Positions 769 through 42,723 of a stretch of 45,828 nucleotides of DNA are shown here, piece after piece. Made by a program: the position numbers and the translations under genes. The stretch spans positions 1-45,828 of the forward strand of contig RDOA01000027.1 in NCBI GenBank assembly GCA_011364925.1, given 5' to 3'. Source of the stretch: Promethearchaeota archaeon (lineage in GTDB: Archaea > Asgardarchaeota > Lokiarchaeia > Sigyniarchaeales > SOKP01). The notes under the pieces are model-generated. The model had not been told where the DNA came from. It did no database searches and was given only the letters and a program-made list of their open reading frames with translations. Every line of letters starts with the position of its first letter. Position 1 is the first letter of the stretch.

Positions 769-1857
769 TTATATTCTTTTTATTTTCAAATCTTTCTCAA
801 AAAAACCCGATGAGATTAAGTTTAATTTATTTTTATCTAAGTGAGTATATAACTCAATAGAGGAATTTTTATTAATGTGATTATCTTTATTCTTTCTATT
901 TTCAAGTAACCTTTTAAGTGTTAAATAAACTGAGTATTTCGAATTATCACATCCTATCCACCTTCTGTTTAATTTATCAGCGACAGTCAAAGTAGTTCCA
1001 GAACCACAAAAAAGATCCGCGATTAAATCATCTTCATTACTTCCTATTTTAATTATCCTTTCTATTAAGTTGTGGTGTTTCTGAGTAGGAAAACCAGTCC
1101 ATTCTTTTGAGGCTGGCTGTAAACACGGTATTCTCCAAACATCATCAATTTTTTTATCCGTAACTGTACGGTAAATTACGTGACCATTTTCGTCCTTAGC
1201 GTTTTTCAGTACACCATTTACCATTTCTCTTTTAAGTTGTTTAATTGGTTTGCTCCGAGGGATTCTTTCTTCGTTAAAAGTATAGTTTGATGACTTAGAA
1301 TAGACCAAAATGTTATCGTGTGCACGCGGAAGATTTTGTTTTCCCGCAGAGTACTTATTGTAATAATACCAGATAATTTCATTTATGAATCGGTTCCTCC
1401 CAAATACTTCGTCCAGAATTAATTTAACATAATGACTTGCGTGCCAGTCTAAATGAATAAACAACAATCCTTGTTTAGATAAGAGCTTTTTAAAAACTAC
1501 AATCCTTTCATATAACATTTGTAAGTACGAGTCTAAATCTTTATTCCAACAATCAAAATAAGCTATTGAATCATATTTAGAATCTCCTTCTAAAATCCTT
1601 ATGTTGTAATTAGATCCAGAAAAGAAAGGAGGATCGATGTATATCAAATCAATTTTTTCTTCAAAATCATTTATGAGGTAGTATGATACATTTAGGTTAT
1701 CGCCCCAAAATAACATATTTTCCCATGTTTGATTCTTATCAACCTGAGATGTTTGAGGATTTAAATTAATTATTTCGTAATAATCTCGAAATGCATTTTT
1801 TAACCTAGCGATATTATTTAAAAATTCCCTCTTATTTTCCCAGATTAGCTTTACCAT
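769..1857 (-). CDS. Site-specific DNA methyltransferase (N4/N6, beta class)
   Basis: Transfers a methyl group from S-adenosylmethionine to an amino group of adenine or cytosine in DNA. The catalytic motif DPPF (residues 75-78) comes before the SAM-binding motif FCGSGTT (283-289). That permuted order defines beta-class amino-methyltransferases, as in type III Mod subunits and related solitary enzymes. The protein is 362 aa and appears complete. No restriction endonuclease gene is next to it. The upstream gene on the same strand (MgtC/DUF4010-like) ends 30 bp away, so they may be co-transcribed. The target sequence cannot be read from the protein. A solitary or epigenetic methylase is as likely as part of a restriction system. 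Confidence 0.85.
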   Translation of the reverse strand: MVKLIWENKREFLNNIARLKNAFRDYYEIINLNPQTSQVDKNQTWENMLFWGDNLNVSYYLINDFEEKIDLIYIDPPFFSGSNYNIRILEGDSKYDSIAYFDCWNKDLDSYLQMLYERIVVFKKLLSKQGLLFIHLDWHASHYVKLILDEVFGRNRFINEIIWYYYNKYSAGKQNLPRAHDNILVYSKSSNYTFNEERIPRSKPIKQLKREMVNGVLKNAKDENGHVIYRTVTDKKIDDVWRIPCLQPASKEWTGFPTQKHHNLIERIIKIGSNEDDLIADLFCGSGTTLTVADKLNRRWIGCDNSKYSVYLTLKRLLENRKNKDNHINKNSSIELYTHLDKNKLNLISSGFFEKDLKIKRI

Positions 1858-1887
1858 TATAACTCATTAATTTATGATTGAATCTGA

Positions 1888-3159
1888 TTAGAGGATTGAT
1901 ATGTTAAATATCAATATTGTCAACCATGTCATTGAAATTAGGATACTTATTGTCACGAGAATATAAACGATAAGGTGAAGGACATATACTTTTTTGTTTT
2001 TCTTTTCATCCAAAGCTCTTGTAGAATAGAAAATCTTGTTCAATATTGCAGCAGATAATCCAATTGTTAACATCATTAGTGCGTTTCCTTCGCTAATTGA
2101 AGCTTTGTAAAACGAAAGTGCTACAAATAGAGAAGACGCACCTCCAGAAAGTAAACCCATTCCAAACACTATAATATAATAAGCGAGAAAAGGTAGTTCA
2201 AAAAAACTTAACACGATCGACAAAACTAAACCAATCAAATATGTTCCTGCAAAAATCAAAGCGCTTTTGATTGATAAGGGATTTTCTATTTTTTCTAAAG
2301 TTAGCTGAGTCTTTTTCCTTCTTAAAACTAAAAATGAACCAATTAAACCTATAAATGAAGTAACTAGAATAGGATATACAGCATAACCTAATAAATTTGG
2401 CGTGATCACTAACACAATAATCATCCTAATTAGCATTGTTTGAATTACAAGCCATATTGAAGAAGAAGATGCACCCGCTTCCGCTAGCTCAATAGTTGTA
2501 GCCTCACTGTGAGCAAAACCACCTAGAAACGAAATGTAATAAAGGTTTCTTTCGCTCGTGCTTTTTAATAAGAAGTAACTGAAATATTTTACCGCTAAAA
2601 TTATAATAAATATTATTATGATTGATTTAACACCAATACCAAAAATTTCCAAATTATCAGGAATCAAGATATAAAGCAATACTACAATCGCTATAAACTC
2701 AACAGTTCCCGTCCACTCAATATCTTTTAAGCTTCTAATTTTATTAAACTGCTTTTTAGTAGAAAGAATAATTAGAAAAATTACAGAGATTGTAATAGCA
2801 AGATATTCATTGTAATAACACATAGCCCCCACTATCATTGCTAATAACATTGAAAGTGTAGATGTATATCCAATATCTCCTTTACGAAATAACCTATGGA
2901 TAGAACCAATCAACAAAAAAATAATCATTCCGCCAAAAAATAAAACGGTAATAATAAATCCCTCCGATGTCGGTAAAAAAACTTCGTTTAGAATGATTAA
3001 AGATGTTGAAATCATTGAAAAAAAGATATGATCTCGAGCACCGTATTGGGCTTCAACCCTCGTACGCTCTATCCCTATAACAAAACCACAGAAAAACGAA
3101 ATAATGATTTTTAAAAATAAAATGTAAAATTCTTCTATTGGTATCATTTGGAACATCAA
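1888..3159 (-). CDS. MgtC/SapB-DUF4010 membrane protein
   Basis: An integral membrane protein of 423 aa with about 11-12 hydrophobic segments. The N-terminal third resembles MgtC/SapB (GFVIGIERTR, then GARDH). The C-terminal two thirds resembles DUF4010, including a GGFAHSEATTIELAEAG stretch like the GG-x-SS-x-ATT signature of that family. MgtC proteins are linked to magnesium or phosphate stress in bacteria, but the transport activity of this fused form is not established. It lies directly upstream of the DNA methyltransferase gene on the same strand. A functional link between the two is not evident. Confidence 0.75.
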   Translation of the reverse strand: MMFQMIPIEEFYILFLKIIISFFCGFVIGIERTRVEAQYGARDHIFFSMISTSLIILNEVFLPTSEGFIITVLFFGGMIIFLLIGSIHRLFRKGDIGYTSTLSMLLAMIVGAMCYYNEYLAITISVIFLIILSTKKQFNKIRSLKDIEWTGTVEFIAIVVLLYILIPDNLEIFGIGVKSIIIIFIIILAVKYFSYFLLKSTSERNLYYISFLGGFAHSEATTIELAEAGASSSSIWLVIQTMLIRMIIVLVITPNLLGYAVYPILVTSFIGLIGSFLVLRRKKTQLTLEKIENPLSIKSALIFAGTYLIGLVLSIVLSFFELPFLAYYIIVFGMGLLSGGASSLFVALSFYKASISEGNALMMLTIGLSAAILNKIFYSTRALDEKKNKKVYVLHLIVYILVTISILISMTWLTILIFNISIL

Positions 3160-3217
3160 AAAAATCTCGTTTTTATGAAATGTTCGAATAAATTTAAAAA
3201 TAAAACAAGAAGAAAAT

Positions 3218-3928
3218 TTAATCTTGTTTTCCAGAAAAAATTTCTTCCAATTCTTTATCTGAGAGGAAACCCTTTACAGACATCACTTCCCGAATCTTTT
3301 CAATAACTTGAGGCGCTCCTTTTGCCTCTTCAATATAACCCTCTAAGGATTTAATCTTTAATCCCATTGCTTCTATTTCTTTATTTTTTGCAACTATGTC
3401 ATTTTTCGTCCTGATGATTTCAGCTTCTTTACCATTTAATTGGTCTTTTAATTCGTCCCTTAAACTTTCAATTTCAACATATTTATCAGAAATCGTTTGT
3501 TGCAAATCTTTTTTTATGCTTTCAAGTTCTCTATCTTTTTGCTCATAATCTTCTTTTAATGATGCAACTTGAGGTTCAAGGTCCTTTAATTTTATTTCTG
3601 CATTTGAATATTTGTTTTTAAAATCTGAATGTTCGTTTCTTAAGCTCTCTAATTCCGTTCGCATCTTGTCATTTTCCTCCTTTAGAGAACTCAAATCTTC
3701 TTTAACAGAGTTCAGTTCTTGTGTTGTGTTACTTAGTTTTGATTCGTTGTTAGATAACTCTGTTTTAGTTTGGCTTAGTTCTTTAGAAATATTATCAATG
3801 TTTTTTTCCCTCTGTTTTAATTGTTTTTCTATATCTTCGATTTTTGCTCTTAAGTCCAATAAAAATCGCCCTTCTACTTTCTGGGATTTTTCTGGATTTT
3901 CTGACGCTTTTTCCCAGTCAATTGAAAT
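3218..3928 (-). CDS. Coiled-coil protein, paralogue A (AUU start inferred)
   Basis: Almost entirely heptad-like coiled coil, with a conserved C-terminal block (KIREVMSVKGFLSDKELEE). It is a tandem paralogue of the next gene upstream. The first TTG (3859) gives MDLRAK, but the similarity between the two paralogues continues 23 codons further upstream (ISIDWEK, then QKVEGR, then LLDLRAKI). Translation must therefore start earlier. That stretch has no ATG, GTG or TTG. The first conserved codon is ATT at 3928-3926, with AAAGGTG at 3943-3937 eight bases upstream, so I infer an AUU start giving 236 aa. Function is unknown; a structural or scaffold role is only a guess. Confidence 0.65.
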   Translation of the reverse strand: MSIDWEKASENPEKSQKVEGRFLLDLRAKIEDIEKQLKQREKNIDNISKELSQTKTELSNNESKLSNTTQELNSVKEDLSSLKEENDKMRTELESLRNEHSDFKNKYSNAEIKLKDLEPQVASLKEDYEQKDRELESIKKDLQQTISDKYVEIESLRDELKDQLNGKEAEIIRTKNDIVAKNKEIEAMGLKIKSLEGYIEEAKGAPQVIEKIREVMSVKGFLSDKELEEIFSGKQD

Positions 3929-3936
3929 TTCTCTTA

Positions 3937-3943
3937 CACCTTT
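3937..3943 (-). promoter_or_regulatory. Shine-Dalgarno before AUU start
   Basis: AAAGGTG on the minus strand, 8 nt before ATT at 3928. It supports initiation at that AUU codon because the upstream frame has no standard start before its stop. Confidence 0.5.
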
Positions 3944-4045
3944 ATTTATTTTCTTTTTACTTCATTATTTTTAATTTATAATTTTAGCATATACAATAAA
4001 TATTTTATTCAAATTATTTATTCACTCATATATCATCTGTTAAAA

Positions 4046-4708
4046 TCACTCGAAATCCTTTAAGATATTATCCATCTCTCGGTCACTAATAAAACCTTTA
4101 TGAACCATAGTATCTCTAACGCGGTCCAATATTTTAGGTGCAGCATCTACTTCAGTGAGTTTTTTCTCAAGCAATTTAACTTTTATTATTAATTCTTCTG
4201 TTTCAGCTTGATTTTCCTTGATGACTTGATTGAATCCATTAATTTCTTTTTTCGCATTTTCTAAATCTTCTTTATGGTTCTCAATGGTTTTATCTTTAAA
4301 TTTAATGCTTTGTTCCATCTCAGCGTTTTTCTCTGAAATAAATTTTAAATCATGCTCTAAGTTATTTATTGTATCGTTAGCTTCTTTTAAATTTGATTCT
4401 AGTTCCTCTAATTTTGGTCTCAATCGAGTTAACTCAATATCAGTATTTAATTTACTTTCAGACACATTATCTAAATTCTTTTTAGCCGAGGAGAACTTTT
4501 CACTGATTTTAACTAAACTTTTTTCTCTCCCAGTTAGTTTATTCTGAGTTTCTTTTAGTTCTTCTTTTGTTTTATTCAACTCTTCTTTTAGTCTTGCGGA
4601 TTCTCGTTCTAACTCATTAATTTTAGCCCGTAAATCTAACAGTATTCGACCCTCAACTTTTTGCAGTTTAGACGGATTTAGTTCACATTTCTCCCAATTT
4701 ATGCTAAT
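4046..4708 (-). CDS. Coiled-coil protein, paralogue B (AUU start inferred)
   Basis: Tandem paralogue of the coiled-coil gene at 3218-3928. It has the same layout: a conserved N-terminal block (ISINWEK, QKVEGR, LLDLRAKI), a long lysine/glutamate-rich coiled coil, and a conserved C-terminal tail (RVRDTMVHKGFISDRE). The first ATG (4579) lies inside the coiled coil and would remove the conserved block. The frame upstream of the block reaches TAA with no ATG, GTG or TTG. ATT at 4708-4706 is the first conserved codon. The purine-rich AAAGGTGGAGG (4722-4712) lies just before it, so an AUU start is inferred, giving 220 aa. Role unknown. Confidence 0.65.
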   Translation of the reverse strand: MSINWEKCELNPSKLQKVEGRILLDLRAKINELERESARLKEELNKTKEELKETQNKLTGREKSLVKISEKFSSAKKNLDNVSESKLNTDIELTRLRPKLEELESNLKEANDTINNLEHDLKFISEKNAEMEQSIKFKDKTIENHKEDLENAKKEINGFNQVIKENQAETEELIIKVKLLEKKLTEVDAAPKILDRVRDTMVHKGFISDREMDNILKDFE

Positions 4709-38894: not shown

Positions 38895-39824
38895 ATGAAA
38901 ACAGAGTTTAATATCGGTTTCGATTGTTCTCATCAGAACAAGTTAAGTATCGAGGATCCAGGCTTTAATGATTTTATAGAATATCTCTTCAACTCGGATT
39001 TAAAGTTGGGAAAAATCGAAGCAGGAATCACATATGAAAAGTTGTCAGACTATAACGTTTTCATAATAGGAGTTCCTTTTGCTGGATCTTATATTACCGT
39101 CGAAGAAATCGACAGTTTGACCCAATACGTGAAAGATGGCGGGTCGCTTCTCATCATTAATGATAAGGGGGGAGAGTTCGAAAATAAGAATAATTTAAAT
39201 GAGCTAACGAAAATTTTTGGTATTAAATTCAATCCAGATCAGCTCTTTGATAACGATCATTTTTCTAAGGATATTTCTCGCCCGATAATTAAAGATTTTA
39301 AAAAACATTTTATAACTCGTGATCTTACCCAAATTATTCACTCTAACGGATGTACTATCCAAATCGATAAATCAGTAGAAACTGAAGATATAGATGTGTC
39401 AGCAATCGCGTTCTCCTCTGAGGATTCCGCTTGGCACAAAATATTTAATGGGGAAGTATGGTTAGATGAACCTGTAGAAAAAGCTCCCGTTATCGCTATC
39501 AGTCATTACGGTATGGGAAAAGTGGTAGCTATCGGAAATTTGTCTCTTTTTTCAGGATTTCATGCGTTATACGGTATACAAGCTGCTGATAATTTTAGGT
39601 TGATTTCTAATATCATAGCTTGGCTTATGAATAAAGCCCACTCCAAGGAAGCACAGTTATCTCAGCCAATTTTTATCACTATTCCTGTTGAACAAGATTT
39701 ATACTATTGGATGAAAGAAAAACTAGATGAAGAACGCTGGCAGAATGTTGAAGAAATCATAAACTTTGCTCTAAAAGTAGTTAAATTTAGAATGAGAAAG
39801 CAAGAAAGCCTAGAAGATTTATAG
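38895..39824 (+). CDS. GIFT-domain (GldG/IFT52-like) protein
   Basis: A soluble 309-aa protein. Residues 5-130 match the pattern of the GIFT domain shared by bacterial GldG-type proteins and eukaryotic IFT52: IGFDCSHQNKLSIED, then YNVFIIGVPFAGSYITVEEI, then VKDGGSLLIINDKGGEFENKNNLNELTKIFGIKFN. A later segment (ISHYGMGKVVAIGNLSLFSG) completes the glutamine-amidotransferase-like fold. The C-terminal 80 residues are helical. There is no catalytic triad, so it is probably a binding module. The call comes from pattern recognition, not a search. It is followed 41 bp later by the phosphoesterase gene on the same strand. Confidence 0.55.
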   Translation: MKTEFNIGFDCSHQNKLSIEDPGFNDFIEYLFNSDLKLGKIEAGITYEKLSDYNVFIIGVPFAGSYITVEEIDSLTQYVKDGGSLLIINDKGGEFENKNNLNELTKIFGIKFNPDQLFDNDHFSKDISRPIIKDFKKHFITRDLTQIIHSNGCTIQIDKSVETEDIDVSAIAFSSEDSAWHKIFNGEVWLDEPVEKAPVIAISHYGMGKVVAIGNLSLFSGFHALYGIQAADNFRLISNIIAWLMNKAHSKEAQLSQPIFITIPVEQDLYYWMKEKLDEERWQNVEEIINFALKVVKFRMRKQESLEDL

Positions 39825-40438: not shown

Positions 40439-41174
40439 TTAGAAACTTTCCATTGTTGTACCCGATAATTTCTTATAATGATTAAGCACAGCTTGTCGAG
40501 CTGCGTAGACAAAAGCTCTTTTCACGTTTACCCCCGTTATCGCTATGGTTTCATATATTAAGCAGTGATTAAGCTTGGCGGTGTCGAGCACCTGTCGTAA
40601 CTTCGATATCTCTATTATACCTTCTAAATCTCTTTTATTTGCTAAAACAACGATTGGAACCTCAGGTGGATCGAAAGGTTTCGGTGGAATTAGCTTATCT
40701 CCGTAAAACTTAAGCAGTTCCTTGAGAGACCAGATGTTCTTGAGTAGTTAATCCCTAATTATTAACTAATTCTCCCCATTGGTCAATCAAAGAATCCCAT
40801 GTGAATATTACCGCGTCTGTACCTTTAAGAACCGTTTGGCGCTGGAATTTGTGGCGTCTCTGACCGGCAACTGTCTGTATAGTTTCTCGAGACGAGAAAT
40901 CTAATATACCTGAAATACCACGTTAGATACGCGTGCTACAACCCGGTCAAAGAATAATGTTCGGCCCGTTGGGTCTTGGATTTGCTGCATCTAGTGAGAA
41001 ACACCAAAATAGTAATTTCATATCACCTGAAGCAAGTCCCTTTATAAATAACAATCGAAAAGATTATTATTCTTTATTGTAGACCCACTCAAGTGCCGTA
41101 GTTTTTCCGCCTAAACTTGGTCCGTAAAAGCAAATTTTAAAGACTAAGGTTCCATCGCCCCTACGCGATGGCAT
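40439..41174 (-). CDS. Ras/MglA-like small GTPase, split by four BHB-like introns
   Basis: A small GTPase in five exons (minus strand): 41174..41072, 41041..41022, 40990..40904, 40874..40770, 40738..40439. Unspliced, the 736 nt contain many stops and are not a multiple of three. Spliced, the 615 nt give 204 aa with no stop. It has the P-loop GPSLGGKT (18-25), switch region PTGRTLFFDR, G3 VFQVYTVAGQ (in line with LQIWDTAGQ of Ras), G4 NKRD (139-142) and an ETIAITG G5-like segment. The start MPSRRGDGTLVFK is preceded by GGAGGTG, so the gene looks active rather than decayed. Introns sit after or within residues 35 (phase 1), 41, 70 and 105 (phase 0). The fold resembles Asgard MglA/Rag-like GTPases. 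Confidence 0.85.
40739..40769 (-). other. Putative BHB intron 4 of the GTPase gene (31 nt)
   Basis: Inner hairpin TAGTTAAT/ATTAACTA is a perfect 8-bp stem around AATTAGGG. 5' exon GGAG faces CTCA (three pairs, one mismatch). The bulges are AAT and AGA, and cuts after the second base of each restore GGA GAA AAC. The exons add an outer helix (GACCA with TGGTC, then ATG with CAT, one bulged C). This is the clearest structure of the four. Confidence 0.85.
40875..40903 (-). other. Putative BHB intron 3 of the GTPase gene (29 nt)
   Basis: 5' exon GTAT pairs with ATAC at the insert end (4 of 4). The bulges are ATT and AGA. The inner hairpin is TTTCTCG/CGAGAAA around TCT, extended by AG/CT after one bulged A. 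Cutting after the second bulge bases gives TAT ACA, restoring the G3 strand FQVYTVAGQ. The outer exon helix is weak. An alternative GT...AG excision of 35 nt would delete Val-Tyr and break the G3 alignment. Confidence 0.8.
40991..41021 (-). other. Putative BHB intron 2 of the GTPase gene (31 nt)
   Basis: 5' exon GGTG faces CACT (4 pairs, one G-T). The bulges are ATA and AGA. The inner stem GAAA/TTTC has a 14-nt loop after one T-T mismatch. The exons add an outer helix, GCTTCA with TGCAGC (5 of 6 pairs). Cuts after the second bulge bases join GAT to ATG CAG. The inner stem is the weakest of the four, so the exact edges could shift by a few bases. Confidence 0.7.
41042..41071 (-). other. Putative BHB intron 1 of the GTPase gene (30 nt)
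   Basis: 5' exon ATAA pairs with TTAT at the insert end (4 of 4). The bulges are AGA and AAA. The inner hairpin ATAATAATC/GATTGTTAT is a 9-bp stem (one T-G) around TTTTC. Cuts after the second bulge bases give AAA GAG GGA, reading KEGL. The outer helix is poor. Unspliced, two stop codons in a row follow the P-loop exon. Confidence 0.8.
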
Positions 41175-41182
41175 TCAAGTTT

Positions 41183-41189
41183 CACCTCC
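41183..41189 (-). promoter_or_regulatory. Shine-Dalgarno of the GTPase gene
   Basis: GGAGGTG, eight bases before ATG 41174. It fixes the start and shows the message is built for translation, which argues against a dead pseudogene. Confidence 0.75.
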
Positions 41190-41346: not shown

Positions 41347-42723
41347 TTAGTCGCCTAAAGAATTTGAACTACGCTTCCTACTAAGACTAAATAAATAACT
41401 ATCCATCATTGAACGAAAAACAATAGGGCTTAAGTTCAATGCATATACTAATTTATCTGGAATGATTTTTCCATCTTCAAGATAGCTACTTAAATCTGAT
41501 TGTATATAAACCTTGTTCTTTATCTCAAACAATGATTTTACATCATCTAAGAGCTTTTTATTTGACGAATAAATCCTACCTTGATTACTGCCAATATAGG
41601 TACCATCACCATCATAAAAGCCCAAAAGCCACGCATGAGCCATGCGGCCTGAGTGTGTAGTAAACCATTGGATACTATTAAACCTTGCTTCCTTCTTAGC
41701 GTTTATAATAAATGACTTGATGACCTGGGGTACACCGATTTCCCCTGATTTTAAACCATGAAAATCAAGACTCTTTAAACTTTCTGCTATTTGACTAGAA
41801 GAAAACCTTATCTTTGAGGTCCTACCAGTTCGAACCTTACCTTTATAAGTCCAAAATCTCCTCTGCTGAGTAATTCGAGAAGAATCTAAACCCATGGAAT
41901 AACAAAAGTGTCTAATAATCACCTCATCTTTAATTGCTAATTCTATCGAGATTCTTGGTCGTGTTGATGACAAGCTTCCGTCTGCAGACAAGAAACCTAG
42001 CCAATATGCTTTAAATATCAAATTAATTTCATTAAAGAAATTTTTGCGCTTTATCGAATAGTCCTTTTCATGCCAATAATGTAAATCTGGATTATGCAAT
42101 TTGTATCGATTTATGTTCTCCAGAAGATTCATTGCATTACTTCTAAAAATGTTTTTTAAAGATTTCTTAAATTCTTCTAAACGTTCTAAAGTAAACTTAT
42201 AATCTGGATTATACCAACGCTTTGACTGTGGATTATTAATTGTATCCAATACCCGATGTATAAAATCTTTATCCCCTGCCAATATCAAGCTAAGTTCTTC
42301 ATTAGTAATAGCTACTTCGCCAGAAATTCTTCCTAATTCATTTTCAAGCTTTTCAATGAATTTTAGAGTACTCAAACCAGAATTAAGATTCTTATATTCT
42401 TGGATAATATCAATACAGCATACAACTTTAGCACCGAAGTTCCCTGCTAAATTCTTCTCAAGGAGACCCAGACTAGTCTCTGTATCTTCAAACCTGAATT
42501 CTGGATTGTAGTCTCTATTTTTTGAATTATTTATTTTATTTTTAACCCTTGCTATGTAATGAAAATTACTACCTCTCCATAATCTTGAAAGATCTCGATC
42601 AGAAAAACGCTTTATACGATCTGGGAAGATTTCAGCTAGGATTTCAGAATGAACGCGTAGTTCTTGACGCAAATCTTCAATTAAATCTAAAGTTGAATAG
42701 ACGGTATCATTAGTATAAGTCAT
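41347..42723 (-). CDS. LAGLIDADG homing endonuclease (free-standing)
   Basis: A 458-aa protein with two LAGLIDADG helices, WLGFLSADG (241-249) and WLLGFYDGDG (364-373), each carrying the acidic metal ligand, so a monomeric double-motif nuclease is predicted. The N-terminal 200 residues hold two copies of a helical unit (about 41-78 and 140-177; LSRLWRGSN..INNSKNRDYNPEFRF against LSLILAGDK..INNPQSKRWYNPDYKF), probably for DNA binding. It is not inside an intein or a visible intron. It lies 172 bp upstream of the intron-bearing GTPase gene on the same strand. The frame is intact, so it may still be active. Confidence 0.85.
   Translation of the reverse strand: MTYTNDTVYSTLDLIEDLRQELRVHSEILAEIFPDRIKRFSDRDLSRLWRGSNFHYIARVKNKINNSKNRDYNPEFRFEDTETSLGLLEKNLAGNFGAKVVCCIDIIQEYKNLNSGLSTLKFIEKLENELGRISGEVAITNEELSLILAGDKDFIHRVLDTINNPQSKRWYNPDYKFTLERLEEFKKSLKNIFRSNAMNLLENINRYKLHNPDLHYWHEKDYSIKRKNFFNEINLIFKAYWLGFLSADGSLSSTRPRISIELAIKDEVIIRHFCYSMGLDSSRITQQRRFWTYKGKVRTGRTSKIRFSSSQIAESLKSLDFHGLKSGEIGVPQVIKSFIINAKKEARFNSIQWFTTHSGRMAHAWLLGFYDGDGTYIGSNQGRIYSSNKKLLDDVKSLFEIKNKVYIQSDLSSYLEDGKIIPDKLVYALNLSPIVFRSMMDSYLFSLSRKRSSNSLGD

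Follow-up and report, generated by a model that had tools for sequence, protein, structure and literature searches.

In the literature, cbf5 is described as the only archaeal coding mRNA with a bulge-helix-bulge (BHB) intron, which measures 16-44 bp and occurs once per gene; the other mRNA cases are an intron in a 5′-UTR of Haloferax and, in a virus, putative inserts of 12 bp (PMC2738675, PMC7714728). A first-pass annotation of the DNA studied here stated that BHB introns in archaeal mRNAs are known only from a few genes such as cbf5. In Thermoproteales and some Asgard lineages, tRNA introns are numerous and non-canonical in position (PMC11291895, PMC4090602). A search of open-licence papers gave no description of introns in Asgard mRNAs.

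The window analysed in this study, that is, the whole stretch of 45,828 nucleotides, is a contig (G000:C35) of the 3.9 Mb genome of a Lokiarchaeon, an Asgard archaeon and hence a member of the group nearest to eukaryotes. Its minus strand carries, at 41174..40439, an MglA/Ras/Arf-type GTPase gene in five exons, and the four short inserts that separate these exons are very probably archaeal BHB introns of the GTPase pre-mRNA. The cbf5 intron of Desulfurococcales and Sulfolobales is similar in that it is a short BHB intron within a coding mRNA of archaea (PMC2738675, PMC7714728), has been gained and lost in particular lineages, depends on a host endonuclease of the (alpha-beta)2 type, as is probable here too, and has a size range of 16-44 bp, which includes the 29-33 nt found here. 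However, the gene in question encodes a small GTPase in the Asgard phylum, with as many as four introns in one gene, eight positions overall and a patchy occurrence between sister species. Moreover, the splicing of cbf5 has been shown by experiment, whereas that of the GTPase introns is predicted from sequence.

The tRNA introns of the same genome resemble the GTPase introns in size and BHB anatomy; the latter, however, interrupt a protein-coding gene and show no clear sequence similarity to the tRNA introns compared. The intron of HVO_1309 in Haloferax volcanii is also a BHB intron of an mRNA, but it is single and resides in the untranslated leader (PMC7714728), whereas the GTPase introns lie within the coding frame. 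Those introns of archaeal rRNA genes that are accompanied by LAGLIDADG homing endonucleases have BHB junctions and can be mobile, and the GTPase gene likewise has a LAGLIDADG open reading frame (ORF) nearby, which, in contrast, lies outside the introns and adjoins the gene in only two of the seven intron bearers. The byp elements of mitochondria are also many short hairpin inserts in coding genes, but the GTPase inserts follow the BHB register and obey no take-off/landing triplet rule.

If spliced, the GTPase gene would be the second beside cbf5, located in the phylum nearest to eukaryotes, with one to four introns per species and gain or loss visible between sisters. Asgard archaea would then host multi-intron protein genes by way of the tRNA splicing pathway, and not by group II or spliceosomal introns. 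With its intron-bearing and intronless versions, the gene offers natural material for the study of intron gain, and automated annotation breaks genes that are interrupted in this way.

A GTPase gene in five segments

When 41174..40439 is read directly, the frame translations show a Ras/MglA-like GTPase scattered over frames with stops throughout. We performed a spliced alignment of the DNA with a profile of 20 uninterrupted orthologues, in which gaps of 20-50 nt were allowed anywhere and in any phase and no structural term was used. This alignment yielded one joined frame of 204 amino acids plus stop (205 codons), interrupted by four inserts that measure 30, 31, 29 and 31 nt; the parts are arranged as follows.

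41182..41189, minus strand: Shine-Dalgarno sequence GGAGGTGA, read from the sequence, with the ATG 7 nt downstream
41072..41174, minus strand: exon 1, 103 nt, with ATG and P-loop GPSLGGKT (spliced profile alignment; P-loop in the joined protein)
41042..41071, minus strand: candidate intron 1, 30 nt, within codon 35 (phase 1); 4/4 pairs in the central helix ATAA/TTAT
41022..41041, minus strand: exon 2, 20 nt (spliced profile alignment)
40991..41021, minus strand: candidate intron 2, 31 nt, ahead of codon 42 (phase 0); 4/4 pairs in the central helix GGTG/CACT and 5/6 in the outer exon-exon helix
40904..40990, minus strand: exon 3, 87 nt (spliced profile alignment)
40875..40903, minus strand: candidate intron 3, 29 nt, ahead of codon 71 (phase 0); 4/4 pairs in the central helix GTAT/ATAC
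40770..40874, minus strand: exon 4, 105 nt (spliced profile alignment)
40739..40769, minus strand: candidate intron 4, 31 nt, ahead of codon 106 (phase 0); 3/4 pairs in the central helix GGAG/CTCA, with G.A as the mismatch in the outer position
40439..40738, minus strand: exon 5, 300 nt, with NKRD motif and stop

The first-pass annotation had proposed a comparison with uninterrupted homologues of this kind. Its reading of five minus-strand segments as one 205-codon frame including the stop follows both from the frame translations and from the structure-free alignment, the four insert lengths it gave were recovered, and the strong Shine-Dalgarno sequence it had noted is present ahead of the ATG. 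Likewise, the hairpin and BHB junction claimed for each insert are found at the cuts defined by homology, with 4/4, 4/4, 4/4 and 3/4 pairs in the central helices.

The joined protein contains the P-loop as well as the NKRD motif of the GTPase G domain, and its homology extends over nearly the full length. It matches the Pfam families Arf (1.3e-8) and Ras (3.3e-7), and its best match in the PDB is MglA (5ymx, E=3.6e-23). In the vicinity, an ORF on the plus strand (38895-39824) matches the IFT52 GIFT domain (7.3e-12) and is conserved beside the GTPase gene in relatives.

Recurrence and geometry of the inserts

In a sample of 65 genomes of the family, 43 gave a strong match to the GTPase, and about 40 genes were complete. 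Seven of the latter, including the window gene, are interrupted. Together they contain 15 inserts of 29-33 nt at eight positions, namely the four of the window gene and 11 in six relatives, which carry one to three each in the GTPase gene, often at other positions. According to the spliced alignments, which used no structural information for the relatives either, the inserts are located at the following codon sites.

Window gene: 35, 42, 71, 106
L062: 20
L067: 103
L069: 42
L070: 69, 103
L076: 13, 35, 42
L078: 13, 42, 103

The six interrupted relatives are MAGs assigned to Candidatus Lokiarchaeota/Lokiarchaeia, with differing sample and isolate names. Outside this family, the GTPase orthologues found elsewhere in the order are uninterrupted. 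In four genomes (G019, G020, G066 and G069, 97-99% complete) we found no GTPase orthologue, which reflects either real loss or an assembly gap; a search for hidden orthologues in the near-complete genomes seemingly without the gene revealed none.

The BHB criterion applied here demands pairing between two tetramers, one in the exon just ahead of the 5′ bulge and one in the intron just ahead of the 3′ bulge, and a cut that follows the second bulge nucleotide, the junction register being chosen so that the protein stays unchanged. All 15 inserts fit this one geometry, with cut sites that are those demanded by protein homology. The central helix is complete (4/4) in 11 inserts and comprises 3/4 pairs in the other four, three of which have the mismatch at the outermost pair. 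Thus, 56 of 60 central pairs are formed, as compared to 28.8 +/- 3.7 at random positions with the same register freedom (maximum 43 in 20,000 draws). When the intron partners were swapped among junctions, 29.2 +/- 4.0 pairs were obtained and 56 was reached in 0 of 100,000 swaps, and counting one junction per distinct exon tetramer gave 34/36 pairs versus 16.7. Moreover, when both sides were slid independently from -4 to +4, the maximum of 56 was located exactly at the predicted offset. The outer exon-exon helix of the 15 inserts is likewise enriched (58/90 versus 34.5 +/- 4.5), as are the inner hairpins. Clear sequence homology was found neither among the introns, even at one site, nor with the tRNA introns compared.

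The genome encodes two PF01974 splicing-endonuclease subunits, one catalytic (alpha) and one non-catalytic (beta), whose genes lie on C29 and C22. Judged by residues read by eye, the alpha product contains the expected Tyr/His/Lys, whereas the beta product lacks the His; the best match of alpha is 3p1z, an enzyme of the Aeropyrum type. The host enzyme is probably of the (alpha-beta)2 type, a type with a broad substrate range (PMC12397907). A gene for the RtcB ligase is present as well. Many of the genome's own tRNA genes measure about 100 nt or more, and the following introns, which are the clear ones, have the BHB geometry of the mRNA inserts.

tRNA-Gly(GCC): 31 nt
tRNA-Ala(TGC): 31 nt
tRNA-Pro(GGG): 30 nt
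tRNA-Pro(CGG): 27 nt
tRNA-Thr(TGT): about 28-29 nt, boundary set by hand

Since these tRNA introns measure 27-31 nt and share the same BHB geometry, the mRNA inserts match those of the host tRNAs in size and build. The intron-bearing tRNA genes are located at C104:6831, C86:231, C91:4964, C11:40621, C58:8987, C44:8815 and C16:64348. Several of their ~30-nt BHB introns occupy non-canonical positions, and the length of the tRNA genes at C44 (159 nt) and C16:64348 (128 nt) suggests more than one intron in each.

Taken together, geometry, cut sites, insert size, host tRNA introns and the presence of endonuclease and ligase agree in favouring the BHB introns that the first-pass annotation had suggested, and they suggest the following splicing pathway. 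The last nucleotides of the upstream exon would pair with the 3′ part of the intron and form the 4-bp central helix, which would adjoin the intron-internal hairpin, with one 3-nt bulge on each of the two strands. In each bulge, the cut by the host endonuclease, probably of the (alpha-beta)2 type, would follow the second nucleotide. Ligation of the exons by RtcB would then result in an mRNA for the 204-aa MglA/Ras-like GTPase. The same endonuclease and ligase would process the ~30-nt introns of the host tRNAs.

Alternatively, as the first-pass annotation had considered, the inserts could remain in the mRNA and ribosomes could hop over the hairpins, as known for the mitochondrial byp elements or T4 gene 60. 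In line with such translational bypassing, the inserts are short, hairpin-forming, uniform in length and located inside a coding gene, and intron 2 of the window gene is flanked by matching ATG triplets. However, matching take-off and landing triplets are present at only one of ten phase-0 junctions, and the codons for two conserved residues, Ser20 of L062 and Glu35 of L076, arise only when the exons are joined at the RNA level. Furthermore, bypassing does not predict a 4-bp exon-intron helix in fixed register, yet such a helix is observed. We therefore consider bypassing very improbable.

Within 115 codons spanning all four introns, the window gene differs from its nearest intronless relative by 73 nucleotides but by only 2 amino acids. 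A second copy of the GTPase was not found in the genome, where the next best match is 38% identical, and 13 of the 15 inserts would introduce a stop or a frame shift if retained in the mRNA. These observations indicate that the window gene is under selection as a joined protein, and the purifying selection on the spliced exons is strong. Consequently, the argument of the first-pass annotation against a pseudogene is upheld by the selection on the joined frame and the lack of a second copy. Although the raw frame contains stops and frameshifts, as expected for a decaying pseudogene or an assembly artefact, the purifying selection, the uniform anatomy of the inserts, their recurrence in seven species from different assemblies and the absence of an intact copy as a replacement render this explanation even less probable than bypassing. 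In particular, an assembly artefact is not credible, because the six interrupted relatives stem from MAGs of differing samples and isolates. Self-splicing (group I/II) or spliceosome-like introns, in favour of which we find nothing beyond inserts that interrupt the frame, have hardly any probability, as a ribozyme would need far more than 30 nt, the window has no Rfam match at gathering thresholds, and the intron ends follow neither the GT-AG (or AT-AC) rule nor a shared sequence.

Distribution and origin of the introns

The introns seem to be concentrated in this GTPase gene. Ab initio scans of 400 kb (about 10%) of the genome, run with loose and with strict settings, looked for BHB inserts whose removal restores a frame. 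At a sensitivity that recovers about half of the known introns in exact register, they gave no excess over register-shifted controls, and no further intron-bearing protein gene was recognised in this portion. The top hits were rejected as introns, as they looked like operon gaps with Shine-Dalgarno sequences. The matched regions of the other GTPase paralogues found in the genome contain no stops, and cbf5 is uninterrupted in this and in related genomes.

Within the family, the distribution is patchy, and some of the exons that flank introns look recombined; the deep nodes of the GTPase gene tree are weak (support 30 at the window gene). At site 42, the window gene and L069 share 28 nt of exon flank, whereas L067, the sister of L069 without that intron, differs. 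Permutation analysis of local excess identity among bearers gave P values of 1e-4 for site 42, 0.008 for site 35 and 0.057 for site 103, and no excess at site 13. The sister species L067 and L069 harbor different single introns, and their genes are 22% divergent at nt 108-309, a stretch bounded by these two introns, as compared to 6% elsewhere in the gene and mostly 0-13% in the 2 kb downstream. L078, which apart from its 5′ part is nested among intronless species, is 35% divergent from L051 at nt 6-117, adjoining two of the L078 introns, and 7% elsewhere. Such tracts look like gain or replacement of introns together with co-converted exon.

The introns could also be old and vertically inherited with many losses, in which case the alike flanks would reflect the constraint of the BHB helices and not gene conversion or homing. 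Consistent with vertical inheritance, sites 13, 35, 42 and 103 are common to several species in the same phase. In addition, the outer helix at site 42 comprises 5/6 pairs in all four bearers, versus a mean of 2.4/6 in genes without the intron, and part of the flank similarity may be due to this helix itself. Pairs of intronless GTPase genes are mosaic as well and show recombination signals. Against vertical inheritance speak the sisters that carry different single introns on either side of a 200-nt divergent stretch, and the divergent 5′ part of L078 amid intronless species; helix constraint does not extend over 100-200 nt. Because intronless pairs are mosaic too and the outer helix may explain part of the flank similarity, intron gain by co-conversion is not proven, and we grant vertical inheritance somewhat less than an even chance.

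Among the close intronless relatives, L047/L049 and L046/L047 are mosaic at nt about 90-320, as if past conversions had left no intron. At the L078 locus (3200-4140), the flank is rearranged, and only a C-terminal remnant is left of the DEAD helicase gene that precedes the GTPase gene.

The LAGLIDADG neighbour

Upstream of the GTPase gene, the window contains the following ORF, which is possibly a homing endonuclease.

41347..42723, minus strand: ORF of 458 aa that contains two LAGLIDADG-like motifs and is separated by 172 nt from the GTPase start; PF14528, E=1.5e-8

Among 38 GTPase loci of relatives, a homologue is found only at the intron-bearing locus L067 (55% identity), where it represents the C-terminal part of a 984-aa ORF (866-3820); none of the intronless loci compared contains it. 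The ORF thus adjoins the gene in two of the seven intron bearers, the window gene and L067, and in both it is located outside the introns, none being inside. A possible third co-occurrence, in G019, was left uncounted, since the contig ends there and the upstream gene is indecisive. The link between the LAGLIDADG ORF and the introns is therefore suggestive only.

Because the ORF adjoins the gene in two bearers and at no intronless locus, a homing-type spread is plausible but unproven. Tentatively, we envisage a mobile mRNA-intron system of Asgard archaea, in which gene conversion would carry ~30-nt BHB introns from species to species into a single conserved GTPase gene. The process would be promoted in trans by the neighbouring LAGLIDADG endonuclease, whose targets the introns would interrupt. 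Several introns per gene would be tolerated because the broad-specificity tRNA splicing enzyme removes them. We regard this scenario as possible, though rather unlikely.

Relatives of the LAGLIDADG ORF occur elsewhere in the family, some of them as C-terminal parts of longer ORFs, and in the ORF lists none of the genes next to them was recognised as interrupted. The N-terminal ~500 aa of the ORF in L067 (866-2425) recur with 85% identity at another place in the genome of the sister species, G030 (L148, 2488-3966). In this copy they are joined to a different LAGLIDADG domain, which is 30% identical to that of the window, as if domains had been swapped.
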